From: Chitinophaga pinensis
GTDB taxonomy: Bacteria; Pseudomonadota; Gammaproteobacteria; Burkholderiales; SG8-41
Assembly (NCBI GenBank): GCA_943329075.2
Contig: CALQCM020000005.1
Coordinates: 62,001 to 126,000 of the forward strand
Reading direction: 5' to 3'
DNA length: 64,000 nt
The translations under genes and the position numbers were made by a program. The notes beneath the pieces are model-generated. The model was given only the letters and a program-made list of their open reading frames with translations. It was not told the origin of the DNA and did no database searches. Below, one piece after another: positions 53,511-61,369 of the stretch; within the stretch, counting starts at the first letter, position 1, and each line of letters begins with the position of its first letter.

Positions 53511-53648
53511 TCAGACCTTGCCGGAGCGCAGCCAATGACCTGATTTCCCGCCTTTTTTCTCGACCAGCTCAATGTCGAGCAGACGCATGCCACGATCGAC
53601 CGCTTTACACATGTCGTAAATGGTCAGCAGGCCGGCGGATACCGCGGT
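53511..53648 (-). pseudogene. Remnant 3' end of the original moaC gene (left attachment copy)
   Basis: This holds the last 45 or so codons of moaC without the front part. It ends GHWLRSGKV-stop (stop complement 53511-53513), while the intact gene at the other end of the island ends GHWLRGK-stop. It is the displaced host 3' end left behind when the element integrated. Confidence 0.88.
53528..53648. repeat. Left attachment-site direct repeat (121 bp)
   Basis: Matches 60901-61021 over 121 bases with a single mismatch (T at 53640, A at 61013). It lies within the moaC coding sequence. The matching pair brackets the integrase-bearing island. Confidence 0.95.
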
Positions 53649-54180: not shown

Positions 54181-54322
54181 TGCGTATTCCGGTGATCGTG
54201 ACCGGTGATTCCGGGCCAAGCCCAAAATCGGTCACGATCAAACGGAATGGCCGGTCACGATCAAACGGAATCGTCGGTCACGTTCCTCCGGAATTCGCGG
54301 TCACGATGGTCCGGAATACGCA
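54181..54322. mobile_element. 142-bp MITE-like element, probably IS21-derived
   Basis: The ends are a perfect 12-bp inverted repeat, TGCGTATTCCGG (54181-54192) and its complement (54311-54322), flanked by the direct repeat GTTAT (54176-54180 and 54323-54327), a 5-bp target duplication. The interior holds several copies of CGGTCACGATC ending near GGAAT, in both orientations, like the repeated transposase-binding sites at IS21-family ends. No transposase gene is present. Confidence 0.8.
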
Positions 54323-54607
54323 GTTATGACAAAAGGATGGCAGAGTTGATCAAAGGCAAAGCGGTATGGGAAACGAGCACAACTGAACCAAAGGGAGTCT
54401 GATTACGTTGAAGAAAGTAGCTGGGTGCGGTGACCCGGATTCGCAGATTGAACCTGTCAGTGCGGGTGTACGGCGTGGTTTTAAGTGTGCTTAGGTGTTG
54501 TGTTCCATTAAGCCCCTTTAGCGAATAGTGATTGACAAGGGGGGGGGGGCACACTAATCAACGCAACTCAAAAATTCGGCTAACCAGTGTCAATAGGAGG
54601 TATCACA
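54323..54607 (+). promoter_or_regulatory. Upstream region of the graspetide precursor
   Basis: No gene is supported. The region contains the promoter with a G tract described separately and ends in the ribosome site AGGAGG (54595-54600), 7 bases before the precursor ATG. Confidence 0.5.
54532..54560 (+). promoter_or_regulatory. Promoter with perfect -35 box and an 11-G tract in the spacer
   Basis: TTGACA (54532-54537) is followed by an uninterrupted run of 11 G (54539-54549). The -10 candidates are poor at the present length: ACTAAT (54553-54558, 15-base spacer) and TAATCA (54555-54560, 17-base spacer). Changes in the G run would change the spacer, as in the phase-variable porA promoter of Neisseria. 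Confidence 0.5.
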
Positions 54608-54790
54608 ATGGTATCAGTGCAGTCACTCTCAAAGACTCCGCAGAAAATTATGTTGCCGAGCACCGATTATTCACCCGCTGATCAAGCGCGTTTTAAGGGC
54701 GGCGAGGCCGACGTTCTTTCCATTACTTGGAATGGAACTCAGACTTACGCCCCCAATGGTCGCCCCTCAGATAGTGATCATGATAATTAA
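54608..54790 (+). CDS. Graspetide (microviridin/marinostatin-like) precursor peptide candidate
   Basis: 60 residues from ATG 54608, with AGGAGG 7 bases before it; the longer GTG frame at 54587 would bury this site. The C-terminus reads TQTYAPNGRPSDSDHDN: hydroxyl acceptors Thr44, Thr46, Ser54 and Ser56 precede or alternate with Asp55, Asp57 and Asp59. RPSDSD echoes the T-x-[KR]-x-P-S-D-x-[DE] core of microviridins and marinostatin, whose side chains are joined by ester bonds. The microviridin PFFARFL leader helix is absent, so this would be an atypical leader. A strong terminator and then an ATP-grasp gene follow directly. The precursor role is inferred from core, size and position. Confidence 0.72.
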   Translation: MVSVQSLSKTPQKIMLPSTDYSPADQARFKGGEADVLSITWNGTQTYAPNGRPSDSDHDN

Positions 54791-54815
54791 ATTCATCTAG
54801 GTTCTATCTAATATT

Positions 54816-54841
54816 AAGCCGACTTCGTGTCGGCTTTTTTT
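54816..54841 (+). terminator. Intrinsic terminator/attenuator between precursor and ATP-grasp genes
   Basis: AAGCCGAC (54816-54823) pairs perfectly with GTCGGCTT (54829-54836) around TTCGT, followed by seven T (54835-54841). The next base begins the ATG of the ligase gene, so full read-through is needed to express ligase and transporter. Confidence 0.88.
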
Positions 54842-55735
54842 ATGCGCACACTAATTATTACGAACTCGTACGATGTAACTGTAGACCTCATCATCAACAA
54901 GATTGGTCACGAACGGTTTATTCGAATAAATTACGACAGGCCGCACGACTGGAAAATACAGTTAGAAACGGACAACCTTCGAATTGAATCGAATTTAGGA
55001 AAGTTCACGCTCGAGCATATCGCAAAAGGAATATGGAGAAAACCGTTCGGAAGTGAACCTGAGGCATCACCATACAACGATAAATTTTACAAAGAGGAGT
55101 GGAAATATTTATTGTACGAACTTACGTCTTTGCTCCGCGATAAAAATCGTCTTCGGTTTAATTATCCTACGCCAGACTATGCGTTTTCAAAAATTACCCA
55201 AAACAGGATCGCGAAACGTCATTTCAAAACAAGCTTGTCGATTTGCTCAATAAATATTGTTCCAAGAACTAATGGTCGATGGGTTGCGAAGTCTCTCTCT
55301 GGAATACCTTTTCAAGATGGTAGCGTTTTATACACCACCGATGTTTCTGAGCATGAGTTAGACAGCAATATATGGTTTTTACAGAAAGCTGTTACCGCAG
55401 AATATGATCTAACTGCAGTCTATCTCTACGGCGAAATATTTTTGTACAGACTGCCGAGAAAACTGTTGTCTTCACTTGATTGGCGGAAAGAGCAGTTTTC
55501 AGTAGTCAAAGATTGGGAAAAAGTCCGCTGCCCCGTCTCTTTGGAGAGTGCAATATCAAGCTTCATGAATGAGGCTGGACTTTGTTACGGACGTTTAGAT
55601 TTTCTCCAAGATTCAATTGACGCAGATCCGATATTTCTTGAGGTAAATCGTAACGGACAATGGGCTTGGTTAGACCACGCACAGCGTGACGGTTTATTTA
55701 ACGCGATGTGTAATGTCTATGACCCCGCAAAATAA
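54842..55735 (+). CDS. ATP-grasp peptide ligase, MvdC/MvdD-like (graspetide synthetase)
   Basis: 297 residues from ATG 54842. The family's features are visible: N-terminal MRTLIITNSYDVTVDLIINK, an IWRKPF motif (the W-x-R-P region) near residue 65, WVAKSLSG (ATP-contacting Lys), LQKAVTAEYDLTAVYLYGEI and the metal/ATP motif YGRLDFL...FLEVNRNGQWAWLD near the end, as in MvdD. In place of the usual N-P-x-G-Q it has N-R-N-G-Q. It would form ester or amide side-chain links in the peptide encoded 51 bases upstream. There is no ribosome site: the T tract of a terminator abuts the start codon. Confidence 0.88.
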   Translation: MRTLIITNSYDVTVDLIINKIGHERFIRINYDRPHDWKIQLETDNLRIESNLGKFTLEHIAKGIWRKPFGSEPEASPYNDKFYKEEWKYLLYELTSLLRDKNRLRFNYPTPDYAFSKITQNRIAKRHFKTSLSICSINIVPRTNGRWVAKSLSGIPFQDGSVLYTTDVSEHELDSNIWFLQKAVTAEYDLTAVYLYGEIFLYRLPRKLLSSLDWRKEQFSVVKDWEKVRCPVSLESAISSFMNEAGLCYGRLDFLQDSIDADPIFLEVNRNGQWAWLDHAQRDGLFNAMCNVYDPAK

Positions 55736-56675
55736 CTTACTTGGTTGGCGAAACATCCTCTTCTGCGACTTGCGATGGCGCTGGGTAACCGTAGCGCTAC
55801 TGCTTTACGGGGTCTTGCTGACTGCTGACTTGGTTTTGTTGGATTGGTATCAGCACTTTTATACCGCAATAACAGCGAGAAATGCCAACGCTTTCCTGAG
55901 GTCAATTGTTACCTACATAATTATTGCTGCGACACAAGCATTAGCACTAGGCCTGATTAGTTATTCTGCAGACATGTGGGAGGCTGAACTAAAAGCATAT
56001 TTTTCTAAGGTCTGGTCAGAGAGACTATCTGAGTTATCTGTGGCCGAAATTCGCGCCCAGAAAGCTGACCAACGACTCATAGATGACGCTGCGCTAGCTG
56101 CCGAAAAGATTGCCAATGTATTCCCATCTTTAATTTTTAATTTATTAAAGGCTATTGCTTTCGTTGCGATTCTTTGGACTTTAGATGTTCCAATTCAGCT
56201 TGTTGTGAGCGAATCCTCCATCACGGTGAGCGGCATACTTCCTACCATCAGCATCATCTTCGTATTCATACAGCTTGGAATCGTTCACAGAGGCCGAATC
56301 TGGGTAAGTAGGAGTGAAAAGTTGAAGCGGGGATTAGAGTCCCGCGCACGTTATGCAATTTTTTCAGATAACGGGAATTCGAATTTACTCAAAAAAGCGA
56401 CGTCACGATATATTTCAGGGGTAATTAAGATACGCCGTATTGTTGGGAAGGCACACGCTCTAACAACATCTAGCTTAAATCTGAGTTCAATGCTGTCTTT
56501 TGTTGTTCCATTCTTGGTAATTTTCCAAGCATACAGTTTGGGGTTAATTGACTTCGGGAGTCTCATGAAAATATCTGCGACCTTTGCAGGGTTTTTGGGT
56601 GCCGTGAACTATATTTTTAATTTTTATCGTGAAGGTTTTCGTGGGTTGTCAGCTGTCGAAAGGCTTCGCGAATAG
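55713..56675 (+). CDS. SbmA/BacA-like peptide transporter, membrane domain only
   Basis: 320 residues from ATG 55713 (ATG 55719 also possible), overlapping the ligase gene by 23 bases. About six hydrophobic segments; DLRWRWVTVALLLYG, LDWYQHFYTAITARN and KADQRLIDDAALAAEKI match the SbmA/BacA and ABC_membrane_2 fold (usual N-P-D-Q-R-I-x-x-D). The nucleotide-binding domain of true ABC exporters is absent, so it would be SbmA-like and ion-driven or need a partner. SbmA proper is near 400 residues; this one is short. Export of, or immunity to, the modified peptide is the contextual inference. Confidence 0.8.
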   Translation: MSMTPQNNLLGWRNILFCDLRWRWVTVALLLYGVLLTADLVLLDWYQHFYTAITARNANAFLRSIVTYIIIAATQALALGLISYSADMWEAELKAYFSKVWSERLSELSVAEIRAQKADQRLIDDAALAAEKIANVFPSLIFNLLKAIAFVAILWTLDVPIQLVVSESSITVSGILPTISIIFVFIQLGIVHRGRIWVSRSEKLKRGLESRARYAIFSDNGNSNLLKKATSRYISGVIKIRRIVGKAHALTTSSLNLSSMLSFVVPFLVIFQAYSLGLIDFGSLMKISATFAGFLGAVNYIFNFYREGFRGLSAVERLRE

Positions 56676-56725: not shown

Positions 56726-57871
56726 ATGAAAAAGGCAGTCGCTTGTTACCTCCTCAATTTTTCGTTAATGTTTTCTGTATTTAGTGGAGCGGTGTTGGCC
56801 GCTAGTCAGGAAGACGCGCTTAAGGCTTTTGAGAACAAAGATTTTGTGGAAGCTATACGAATACTGCGGCCACTTGCAGTCGGTGGTGATGCACAAGCGC
56901 AATACCGATTAGGCTACCTTTATGATGAGGGCCTTGGCGTTGCTCGTGATGCTGTGGAGGCGGTGAGGTGGTTTCAATTGTCTGCGGGGCAAGGTTTTGC
57001 ACAAGCACAAAGCGTGTTAGGCGGCATGTATGACAGAGGGCGAGGTGTTGTGCAAGATTATGCAGAGTCGGTGAAGTGGTGGAAGTTGGCCGCAGCGCAA
57101 GGTCAAGCACAGGAGCAATTGAATTTAGGCCTCATGTATGACAGAGGGCGAGGTGTTGTGCAAGATTATGCAGAGGCGGTGAAGTGGTATAGGTTGGCGG
57201 CTGCACAAGGTAATGCGGTAGGGCAACACAATCTAGGCTTCATGTATGCCAACGGGCAAGGTGTTGTGCAAGATTATGCAGAAGCGGTGAAGTGGTTCAA
57301 GTTGGCAGCTGCACAAGGTTTTGCTGAAGCACAATTCATTCTAGGCGTCGCGTATGGCCATGGGCAAGGTGTTGTGCAAGATTATGCAGAAGCGGTGAAG
57401 TGGTTCAAGTTGGCAGCTGCACAAGGTCTTGCTGAAGCACAATACAATTTAGGTCAAATGTATCGCAAGGGGCAAGGTGTTGTGCAAGATTATGCGGAGG
57501 CGGTGAAGTGGTTCAAGTTGGCGGCGGCACAAGGTCTTGCTGAAGCACAATACATTTTGGGCAATAATTATTACAAAGGACAAGGTGTTGTGCAAGATTA
57601 TGCGGAGGCGGTGAAGTGGTTCAAGTTGGCAGCGGCACAAGGTTATGCTATGGCACAAAACAATTTAGGCGTCGTGTATGAAAAAGGGCAAGGTGTTGTA
57701 CAAGATCATGTACGTGCGCACATGTGGTGGAACTTGGCTGCGGTAAAAGGTAATGTCGATTCTGTAAAAAACAGAGATATAGTTGCGGCAGAGATGAATA
57801 CACAGCAGATAGCAGAAGCACAAAAACTTGCACGGGAGTGCCAATCACGAAACTATCAGGACTGTAATTGA
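56726..57871 (+). CDS. Secreted Sel1-like repeat protein
   Basis: 381 residues. A signal peptide (MKKAVACYLLNFSLMFSVFSGAVLA) is followed by eight Sel1 repeats of exactly 36 residues (about 55-345; unit AQG-A-AQ-LG--Y--GQGVVQDYAEAVKWFKLAA) and a Cys-containing tail (ARECQSRNYQDC). Sel1 solenoids are protein-binding scaffolds, here periplasmic or secreted. The ribosome site is GGAGGATG. It is 50 bases after the transporter gene. It could be part of the peptide system (receptor, immunity or target) or unrelated cargo; the sequence does not decide. Confidence 0.88.
   Translation: MKKAVACYLLNFSLMFSVFSGAVLAASQEDALKAFENKDFVEAIRILRPLAVGGDAQAQYRLGYLYDEGLGVARDAVEAVRWFQLSAGQGFAQAQSVLGGMYDRGRGVVQDYAESVKWWKLAAAQGQAQEQLNLGLMYDRGRGVVQDYAEAVKWYRLAAAQGNAVGQHNLGFMYANGQGVVQDYAEAVKWFKLAAAQGFAEAQFILGVAYGHGQGVVQDYAEAVKWFKLAAAQGLAEAQYNLGQMYRKGQGVVQDYAEAVKWFKLAAAQGLAEAQYILGNNYYKGQGVVQDYAEAVKWFKLAAAQGYAMAQNNLGVVYEKGQGVVQDHVRAHMWWNLAAVKGNVDSVKNRDIVAAEMNTQQIAEAQKLARECQSRNYQDCN
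57043..57710 (+). repeat. Tandem 108-bp repeats inside the Sel1 gene
   Basis: The stretch AGGTGTTGTGCAAGATTATG recurs at 57043, 57151, 57259, 57367, 57475 and 57583, with a variant at 57691: an exact 108-base period. Nucleotide identity between units is high, pointing to recent unit duplication and likely copy-number change. Confidence 0.95.
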
Positions 57872-58104: not shown

Positions 58105-58503
58105 TTAAATCCCGCCTGAACGCTTCCTGCGACGGCTTTTCATCCTATCCAGCAGTTCCTGCCGCTCTTTAGATTGGCGATCAAGCAGCGGTTGCCAACA
58201 TGAGTCAAATACCCTCCCAGCGGCTTCAGAGCCATTGGTCGCGTCTACCCCGATCTTCAATAACCGAATACGTTGAAGGTCATGGGTGTTCTTGGTGATA
58301 CGCTCTTTTGAGCGTTTGCCATGCTTAAAATTGGGAGCCGTTTCTCCGAAACGAAGAGTCTTCCGCTTAATGCTTGCTGCGCCACCGTGAGTAAAACAAA
58401 CGGTCATACCTGTGCAAGCAATCCGGGAACACTGCTGCCAACCTGATGAGCGGCTTTTAGCCTTGCAACGAAGTTCGGGATGAAGTCTTAGACTTGGTAG
58501 CAT
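58105..58503 (-). CDS. Phage-type small protein with CRAKS/HGG zinc-binding-like motif
   Basis: 132 residues. CKAKSRSSGWQQCSRIAC followed by VCFTHGGAASIKRK matches the Cys/His motif C-x-A-x-[ST]-R...C...C...HGG found in small proteins of phages and integrative elements. The basic middle (KHGKRSKERITKN) suggests nucleic acid binding. Function unknown. It supports a phage-derived origin of this arm of the island. Confidence 0.7.
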   Translation of the reverse strand: MLPSLRLHPELRCKAKSRSSGWQQCSRIACTGMTVCFTHGGAASIKRKTLRFGETAPNFKHGKRSKERITKNTHDLQRIRLLKIGVDATNGSEAAGRVFDSCWQPLLDRQSKERQELLDRMKSRRRKRSGGI

Positions 58504-58711: not shown

Positions 58712-59299
58712 CTAGAGGACTGGCGGTGAAGAGGCGCTGTCGTAGGAGTTGCCCCAGTCCGAATGTTCATCAGGCCATTGATCCTTTCCTATAGACGCAC
58801 TTCCTTTCAGGTCATCTCGCCTCACATCATCTCTATTCATCTCAGTAGCTTTAGCACAGATTGAAGCTGTGCTTGAGTGGATTGACGCTTTGCGATGGCG
58901 ATCCTGAGTTGCATGCCCGCCCTTTTTTCCAGCTTCTGCGCGGTTTCGCCGGTATGCGACAGACTCTGCCCGTTGACGTTCTAGTTCCGGACAAAGAAGC
59001 CGTGTTTCATCATTGGGTGAAGTACAAAACCAATAGATAACCCTTGGACTCAAAGATTTCGTAACAGTGTCTTCGTCTAGCTGGAGAATCCGGGATAGGT
59101 GTGCGGCATTCGCGGGAATGCTCCCGTTTACCCAAGTGGCATTGAGCATGGAGAATAGTAATCCCCGTTCTGAGGCTGACATCAAGGCGTATTGTTCAGT
59201 CGCCATCCAGTCTGACGAAAAGCATTGAAAATATGGGAGCGGACGCTTGTCAGCTTTAAGAGGTTCTTTGTAATCGAAATTCAATTGATATCTCCACAA
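58712..59299 (-). CDS. DUF1376-like, phage/element replication-associated protein
   Basis: 195 residues. The N-terminal part YFQCFSSDWMATEQYALMSASERGLLFSMLNATW and GSIPANAAHLSRILQLDED is the DUF1376-type winged-helix pattern found in phage replication initiators. The middle is highly charged and the Ser-rich tail lacks a recognisable helicase-loader domain. It is probably a replication or regulatory protein of the element, and could be truncated. Confidence 0.65.
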   Translation of the reverse strand: MWRYQLNFDYKEPLKADKRPLPYFQCFSSDWMATEQYALMSASERGLLFSMLNATWVNGSIPANAAHLSRILQLDEDTVTKSLSPRVIYWFCTSPNDETRLLCPELERQRAESVAYRRNRAEAGKKGGHATQDRHRKASIHSSTASICAKATEMNRDDVRRDDLKGSASIGKDQWPDEHSDWGNSYDSASSPPVL

Positions 59300-59820: not shown

Positions 59821-60804
59821 TTAACCAAGCTTGCGCGCTAATTCTGCAGCAGACGGGTGATAGTACCTTTTTAACATCACTAAACTTTTATGCCCGGTCA
59901 CCGCTGAAAGCTCAATTAGGTTGGGTAGCAACTTTGCCATCCTTGTGACCGCGGTGTGACGGATATCGTGGAAATGCACGTCCTCCAGACTGGCGCGTCG
60001 GGTTGCCTTCTTAAAAGCGGCTTCCAAGGCGCAAGTGGTTAATGGGATCACCCTACCCGTCAGGCTACGCGGGATGCTATCCAATAATTGGATGGCGGCG
60101 GTTGAGAGTGGCACAGATCGGCTTTCCCCATTCTTCGTATCTTGGAGGAAGGCGACGCGTTGGCCCATATTGATGTCAGCCCACCGAAGCGCCAGCAGTT
60201 CCCCGCGCCGCATGGCTGTCTGTAGGGCTAGTTCAAATGCCGGGAGCATCCAGATGCTGCGTCGGCCAGCAGGCTTTAACTCTTCCTTGATTCGACCGAT
60301 TTCGGCGTCGGTCAGAATACGATTGCGCCCTTTTGGTGCCTTGGGTTTTCGCACCAACTCAACCGGATTGGGCATATTGATACGCCACTCTCGGCGGCTG
60401 TGGTTGATGATGGCTGAAATTGAGGCCAACTCTCTGATGACTGTTCCCGCTCCGACCTTGGCGAGTCTTTCGTCCCTGTAGGCGGCAATCTTTTCAGGGG
60501 TCAACGCGACCATGCTGTGGCGGGTCAGTGGGTGGCGTTTCAGCGCATTAAGCCGAATGAACTCGTCTTTGTAGCCTTTCAGGCCGGGCGCTACCTCTGC
60601 CAGATAACGTGTGATGATATCGGCGAAGGTTAGCCTTTCGGCTTCAGTGCGGCTTTGGTAGATGCCACGTTCAATTTCTACCTCAACTTGCCTTCCCCAG
60701 CGTTCGGCATCTTGGCGGGTTAAAAAGGACTTGCTGATGCTAGGTTGTCCTTTTCGGGCTACCCGTGCCTGCCATTTGTTATACCGAAGCCGCAAAGTTG
60801 CCAT
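59821..60804 (-). CDS. int: Tyrosine recombinase (integrase) of the moaC-targeting element
   Basis: 327 residues. N-terminal arm/core-binding part (MATLRLRYNKWQARVARKGQ) and catalytic domain with the full set of residues: Arg in ALQTAMRRGELLALRW, Lys in DTKNGESRSVPL, HDIRHTAVTR (His-x-x-Arg), GHKSLVMLKRYYHPS (His and the Tyr nucleophile). It lies 85 bases from the attR copy in moaC and is transcribed away from it. Phage-type integrases usually target tRNA genes; moaC as target is unusual. Confidence 0.95.
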   Translation of the reverse strand: MATLRLRYNKWQARVARKGQPSISKSFLTRQDAERWGRQVEVEIERGIYQSRTEAERLTFADIITRYLAEVAPGLKGYKDEFIRLNALKRHPLTRHSMVALTPEKIAAYRDERLAKVGAGTVIRELASISAIINHSRREWRINMPNPVELVRKPKAPKGRNRILTDAEIGRIKEELKPAGRRSIWMLPAFELALQTAMRRGELLALRWADINMGQRVAFLQDTKNGESRSVPLSTAAIQLLDSIPRSLTGRVIPLTTCALEAAFKKATRRASLEDVHFHDIRHTAVTRMAKLLPNLIELSAVTGHKSLVMLKRYYHPSAAELARKLG

Positions 60805-60889: not shown

Positions 60890-61369
60890 TCACTTGCCCC
60901 GCAGCCAATGACCTGATTTCCCGCCTTTTTTCTCGACCAGCTCAATGTCGAGCAGACGCATGCCACGATCGACCGCTTTACACATGTCGTAAATGGTCAG
61001 CAGGCCGGCGGAAACCGCGGTCAGCGCCTCCATTTCAACGCCGGTGCGGTCCAGCGTTGCCGTGGTTGCCGTGCAGACAACCGAAGTGCGTTTGCGATCG
61101 ATCGAAAAATCGATGCTGATGCGGGTCAGCGCGATGGGGTGGGCGAGCGGAATCAGTTCCGCGGTGCGTTTGGCGCCCTGGATCGCGGCGATGCGCGCCA
61201 CCCCCAGAACATCGCCTTTTTTTGCGCTGCCGCCGGTGATCATCGCCAGCGTTTTTTTCTGCATTTCAATGCGGCCGCGCGCCACCGCAACCCGCTCGGT
61301 CTGCGGTTTGGCGCCGACATCGACCATATGGGCCTGTCCGCGGGCGTCGAAATGGGTAAGTTTTTTCAA
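60890..61369 (-). CDS. moaC: Cyclic pyranopterin monophosphate synthase MoaC
   Basis: 159 residues from TTG 61369 (GGAG 8 bases before). Family motifs: [67 protein letters not shown] and the catalytic Lys/Asp region [11 protein letters not shown]. It makes cPMP in molybdenum-cofactor synthesis, needed by the FdsA formate dehydrogenase of this window. Its last codons now come from the inserted element and end GHWLRGK instead of the host's GHWLRSGKV, so the gene is intact but chimeric. Confidence 0.96.
60901..61021. repeat. Right attachment-site direct repeat (121 bp) within moaC
   Basis: Partner of 53528-53648 (120 of 121 bases identical). The crossover must lie within this shared segment. 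Confidence 0.95.

Follow-up and report, generated by a model that had tools for sequence, protein, structure and literature searches.

The question raised by this locus is what is made by three genes that lie head to tail on the plus strand of the window (the whole 64,000-nt stretch of DNA analysed here), and whether they belong together: a gene for a short peptide, a gene for an ATP-grasp enzyme and a gene for an ABC-type membrane protein without an ATPase domain. They very probably form a graspetide biosynthetic cassette, carried as the cargo of an integrative element specific for moaC. A sequence-only reading had described the same order and put the start of the cluster at 54532; all the parts are indeed present, but this start is too far upstream, the peptide gene beginning at 54608. 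The features of the cassette are as follows.

54595-54600, plus strand: Shine-Dalgarno sequence AGGAGG of the peptide gene, read directly from the sequence.
54608-54790, plus strand: precursor peptide gene, 60 aa, ending RPSDSDHDN; leader with KTPQKIML and FKGG; predicted core ...ITWNGTQTYAPNGRPSDSDHDN.
54816-54841, plus strand: hairpin resembling an intrinsic terminator, AAGCCGAC-TTCGT-GTCGGCTT and a T run (-13.1 kcal/mol, z -5.1).
54842-55735, plus strand: graspetide-synthetase-like ATP-grasp ligase of the Thr191/Arg251 type, 297 aa, containing FLEVNRNGQWAW.
55719-56675, plus strand: ATPase-less membrane protein of the SbmA/YddA type, 318 aa, whose gene shares 17 nt with that of the ATP-grasp ligase.

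Judged by its sequence, the ATP-grasp enzyme is a diverged graspetide synthetase, homologous to MdnC, MvdD and PsnB. A profile search of the PDB with the enzyme and 17 relatives returned only graspetide synthetases (AMdnB at 4e-30, MdnB, MdnC, CdnC and PruB), and Foldseek, run with an AlphaFold model (pLDDT 86.8), ranked these same five and PsnB first. The ATP-site lysine and the Mg-binding Asp, Glu and Asn are all in place (K150, D253, E267 and N269), and across 105 synthetases Lys150, Asp213, Arg215, Asp253, Glu267 and Asn269 are conserved at 99-100%. Profile, fold, the conserved ATP-grasp residues and a conserved companion peptide (see below) all bear out the graspetide-like class first proposed. 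As to the narrower label MvdD-like, among the graspetide maturase models of NCBIfam TIGR04187 (72 bits) and MvdC (60 of 425) both outscore MvdD (47 of 475), and all three scores are far under the cut-offs.

Close relatives of the enzyme are rare. None turned up at 1e-10 among 398 genomes from its phylum, nor in single-protein scans of viral and genome contig collections. When 85,000 species genomes were scanned with an alignment instead, relatives were recovered at E values of 1e-36 to 1e-20, mostly in Verrucomicrobiota and Kiritimatiellota, the nearest being approximately 25-33% identical to the window enzyme. In a tree of the 105 synthetases, the window enzyme groups with 34 others, mainly from these two phyla, on one side of a branch with support of 100/99, a value obtained again after a member on a phage contig (L173) was added. 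The window enzyme forms a long basal branch of this clade, and exactly where it belongs within the clade is unsure. Members from elsewhere include those of Microbacteriaceae (L064), Alphaproteobacteria (L054 and L060) and the phage contig. Most of the clade loci look like two-gene cassettes with no obvious partner.

The clade is marked by an exchange of residues. Position 191 is Thr in all 35 clade enzymes and Arg in all 70 others, while position 251 is Arg in 35 of 35 clade enzymes and in the others Ala (68 of 70), Cys (one) or Ser (one), so that the exchange between Arg191/Ala251 and Thr191/Arg251 is exact in 103 of the 105. The solved enzymes MdnB and AMdnB have the Arg/Ala state in the alignments from the PDB profile search. 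Trp178 and Arg206 also distinguish the clade, on a per-column score of the difference between the two groups. From these alignments, Arg251 may take the place of Arg191 in space. The suggestion of a distinct subgroup is therefore sustained as far as distinctness goes, the group having its own clade, its own residues (Thr191, Arg251, Trp178 and Arg206) and its own precursor family.

It is quite possible, if on the whole rather doubtful, that the enzyme is an ordinary member of a group already among 43 sequence-similarity groups, and is new only in its host. Carter et al. 2026 (PMC13097080) count more than 20,000 predicted graspetides, with 19 new groups in addition to 24 earlier ones and several of them with unknown companions, and Makarova et al. 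2022 (PMC8939145) describe 174 precursor families. However, the main texts of these two papers mention neither the clade, nor Verrucomicrobiota or Kiritimatiellota, nor an SbmA-like partner, and the scores of the enzyme lie far under the cut-offs of all the NCBI families. Searching the literature for SbmA in connection with ATP-grasp and RiPP yielded nothing.

Several neighbourhoods of other synthetases are recorded here in their own right. On the phage contig, a Thr191/Arg251 cassette (L173:700-1895), whose peptide ends TDSDDDRSYD, lies within a region of head genes, with a head-tail adaptor before it and a head maturation protease after it; the portal and the N-terminus of the protease seem to be missing. 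At a locus of the same clade (L130:7137-9484), genes for an ABC exporter and an FtsH-like M41 peptidase lie directly downstream, a candidate pair for export and leader removal. Hydrophobic peptides of approximately 40 aa, each a single helix, directly follow the synthetase at L131:6405-6527, at L133:6536-6658 and likewise in L132. In the Arg191 group, a membrane protein of about two predicted helices is found at many loci immediately 3' of the synthetase (L002:4936-5826, L003:4870-5712, L005:4960-5583, L011:7573-8775 and some 20 further loci). These loci are on plasmids, phages and chromosomes, and the protein is a possible effector or transporter partner; it has no Pfam match and only negligible matches in a defence library. 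At L011:5950-6616, one graspetide synthetase is preceded by three small ORFs in tandem, whose C-termini are T-rich and ...ETTDD-like; a transposase and a large helicase-like gene are nearby.

The third protein of the cassette ends after TM6 at 318 aa, which confirms the description of a transporter without an ATPase domain, and can be aligned to SbmA and to the membrane domain of ABC transporters of the YddA type. Such a membrane domain without an ATPase is one of the features of the SLiPT proteins, and the label SbmA/BacA-like is correct for the superfamily. By the features examined, it is not correct for the SbmA (SLiPT) family proper: the match to SbmA_BacA is weak (22 bits, cut-off 24) and that to ABC_membrane_2 is better (31.3 bits, cut-off 24.4); there is no TM0, the N-terminus beginning at TM1 in the alignment; and of the six-residue glutamate ladder of SbmA (E193, E203, E269, E276, E287 and E378; PMC13316013) only E269 and E276 are kept. 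The transporter found no match in a sequence search of the PDB or among phage records, and a single-sequence model of it (pLDDT 45) is too poor for use. No transporter like it is found beside any of the enzyme relatives. Elsewhere, on a Sphingomonas plasmid (L146:1-3975), a YddA-type ABC transporter has a TonB receptor on one side and a TldD-related peptidase on the other, which is suggestive of another peptide cluster.

The direction of transport bears on a second alternative, which we hold to be plausible though not the likelier case, namely that the membrane protein is not an exporter but a factor for uptake or immunity, which imports the product or blocks a YddA/SbmA-type transporter of the host. 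SbmA imports peptides and needs no ATP to do so (PMC13316013), and the host encodes a full-length relative of the membrane protein elsewhere; against this, exporters are used by other graspetide loci, including the ABC exporter in the clade relative L130. A third alternative, that the cluster is decaying and that an ABC exporter has lost its ATPase domain and left the cassette inactive, appears improbable. Relatives of the YddA type do have a fused ATPase domain and the glutamate ladder is incomplete, but all of the ORFs are intact, the genes overlap or abut, and the gap from 56675 to the start of the Sel1 gene at 56726 is too small for an ATPase remnant. Furthermore, shortening has also affected the coupling-helix loop, as in SbmA, and this points to adaptation rather than to a simple truncation.

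Under the graspetide reading, the peptide should be a precursor with conserved donors and acceptors. A small ORF is present directly upstream of the enzyme in nearly every relative, with a C-terminus similar to that of the window peptide, and residues of the donor (Ser/Thr/Lys) and acceptor (Asp/Glu) kinds are conserved among the relatives. In 20 aligned peptides Pro11 of the leader and Asp57 of the core never vary and Thr10 and Thr44 hardly do, the alignment being loose outside the core. The closest core is that of the Microbacteriaceae locus L064, QTFDGNGRPTDSRWD as against QTYAPNGRPSDSDHD in the window (9 of 15 identical, pairwise E 1e-4). Among the 722 window ORFs of 25-150 aa the window peptide is the best match to the L064 peptide, which in turn is the best match to the window peptide among the 149 ORFs of its own locus; their score was reached in 6 of 5000 shuffles. 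A subset of the Verrucomicrobiota and Kiritimatiellota precursors shares GTQ[ST][YF]-x(5-9)-D with the window peptide, and among 14,280 locus ORFs and the 722 window ORFs (25-150 aa) this motif is confined to clade precursors and the window peptide, these chance counts being based on ORFs of the window and of the loci analysed. A profile of 19 relatives' peptides places the window peptide second of the 722 ORFs, with an E value of 0.32 that is not significant alone, and was retained as weak evidence. A match of the peptide to a calicivirus capsid (0.0034) is under the cut-off and was set aside as meaningless.

Between the peptide and enzyme genes, the T run after the hairpin ends at the ATG of the ATP-grasp gene. 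The intergenic region folds with z < -2 in 20 of 23 clade loci, the sequences being different and a T run being present in several, and a significant hairpin is lacking in the other three. In the Arg191 group, by contrast, all five loci inspected (L002, L003, L005, L007 and L011) have an upstream ORF that runs into the start of the enzyme gene. The hairpin may be an attenuator that gives an excess of peptide. The remaining alternative, that the enzyme acts on another substrate and the upstream ORF is there by chance, is very improbable: the peptide is short and its family profile gives only the E value above, but it has a strong ribosome site and a reciprocal best match in L064, its core motif is confined to the clade in the set of ORFs scanned, and the gene order and an intergenic hairpin recur in relatives.

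The graspetide cassette lies within a 7.4-kb integrative element inserted at the 3' end of moaC, of which the further features are listed here.

53527-53648: left attachment repeat, the duplicated moaC 3' end; a 122-nt direct repeat, 99% identical to 60900-61021.
56726-57871, plus strand: Sel1-repeat protein with an apparent Sec signal peptide; a possible, unproven cluster member.
58105-58503, minus strand: element backbone, HGGxSTG-like protein; a similar small protein is found in another moaC-site element.
58712-59299, minus strand: element backbone, DUF1376/primosomal-protein-like.
59821-60804, minus strand: tyrosine integrase of the element, beside the right repeat.
60900-61021: right attachment repeat, inside moaC (60890-61369, minus strand, intact).

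The two 122-bp copies of the moaC 3' end are 7373 bp apart. In a genome of the same genus (G664) the site is empty, SoxA-SoxZ-SoxY running straight into moaC with approximately 156 bp between SoxY and moaC, and the SoxY-moaC junction is also uninterrupted in G548. A third genome, G512, has a 79%-identical integrase at the same moaC site with a different cargo. Given the repeats, the tyrosine integrase, the empty site in a congener and this second integrase, the conclusion is that the element is real, as was claimed from the sequence, and that its cargo changes. The Sel1 gene was not accepted as part of the cluster; Sel1 genes are common, and among the relatives one is directly downstream of the enzyme only in L029. 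It is worth adding that 5' of the peptide gene (54193-54317) 23-bp repeats (CGGTCACGATCAAACGGAAT-like), inverted copies included, form an array that resembles the end of an IS21-type insertion sequence.

A possible mechanism is as follows. The hairpin would stop most transcripts after the peptide gene, leaving peptide in excess over enzyme. The leader, with KTPQKIML and ending near FKGG, would dock on the enzyme, which would phosphorylate Asp55 and Asp57 and perhaps Asp59; attack by Thr44, Thr46 or Ser54 would then close two or three ester rings, with a loss of 18 Da each. Arg251, on the strand that precedes the Mg-binding aspartate, would take over the task of Arg191 in other synthetases, and the membrane protein would carry the product over the inner membrane, in one direction or the other, with no need of ATP. 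All graspetides characterized by 2022 were protease inhibitors, according to Makarova et al. 2022, and this role is not transferred to the window product because its core differs. Most likely the product acts in competition with other bacteria or phages, a role that we favour because the cassette is carried on an integrative element here and on a phage-like contig in L173.

Against the reading as a graspetide cassette we count the low identity and long branch of the enzyme, the E value of the peptide profile, the pairing with a transporter that is unmatched elsewhere, the three loci without a hairpin, and the fact that no peptidase is encoded nearby. We propose, tentatively, a further step: that these enzymes could be a graspetide class not yet described, whose hallmark is the move of an otherwise invariant arginine from position 191 to 251, and that this class spreads between phyla as a compact cassette of peptide, hairpin and enzyme, also on integrative elements and phages, and has here acquired a new type of peptide transporter, minimal and free of an ATPase. 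The arginine exchange asks whether a conserved group can move between active-site strands and change the ring chemistry, which is testable by mutagenesis. The precursor family offers ready substrates from little-studied phyla (Verrucomicrobiota and Kiritimatiellota) and from mobile elements, and the membrane protein may represent one more stage between ABC membrane domains and secondary peptide transporters.

Comparison with known systems places the locus as follows; PADLOC gave only negligible matches to named defence systems. With the solved graspetide synthetases (MdnB/MdnC, AMdnB, CdnC, PsnB and PruB) the window enzyme shares the fold, K150, D213, R215, D253, E267 and N269, the GQ-W motif and a small Thr/Asp-rich peptide encoded beside the enzyme. 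It differs in its identity to them of only about 12-21% in structural alignments, in having Thr191/Arg251 for Arg191/Ala251, and in a peptide without the PFFARFL leader. The peptide is like marinostatin and microviridin in having Thr/Ser donors and Asp acceptors near the C-terminus, and presumably has the string PSDSD in common with marinostatin. The likeness first drawn to these peptides is superficial and amounts to that short string, leader and core belonging to another family: the core is QT[YF]xxNGRP[ST]DSxxD, there is a single ligase, which does not reach the MvdC/MvdD equivalog cut-offs, and inspection of the peptide bears out the absence of the PFFARFL helix and the different acceptor spacing also remarked on, the distance from Thr to the first Asp being longer. 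Like SbmA/BacA (SLiPT) and YddA, the membrane protein has a six-helix ABC-type membrane domain with Tyr368 and Glu269/Glu276, and with SbmA in particular it shares the lack of an ATPase domain and the shortening of the coupling-helix loop; it differs from them in having no TM0 and in having Asp, Ala, Asn and Arg at ladder positions 193, 203, 287 and 378. The Thr191/Arg251 loci of Verrucomicrobiota, Kiritimatiellota, L064, L054/L060 and L173 have the enzyme clade and the precursor motifs in common with the window and, in most cases, the intergenic hairpin, whereas the ATPase-less transporter sets the window cassette apart from every other locus of this type.
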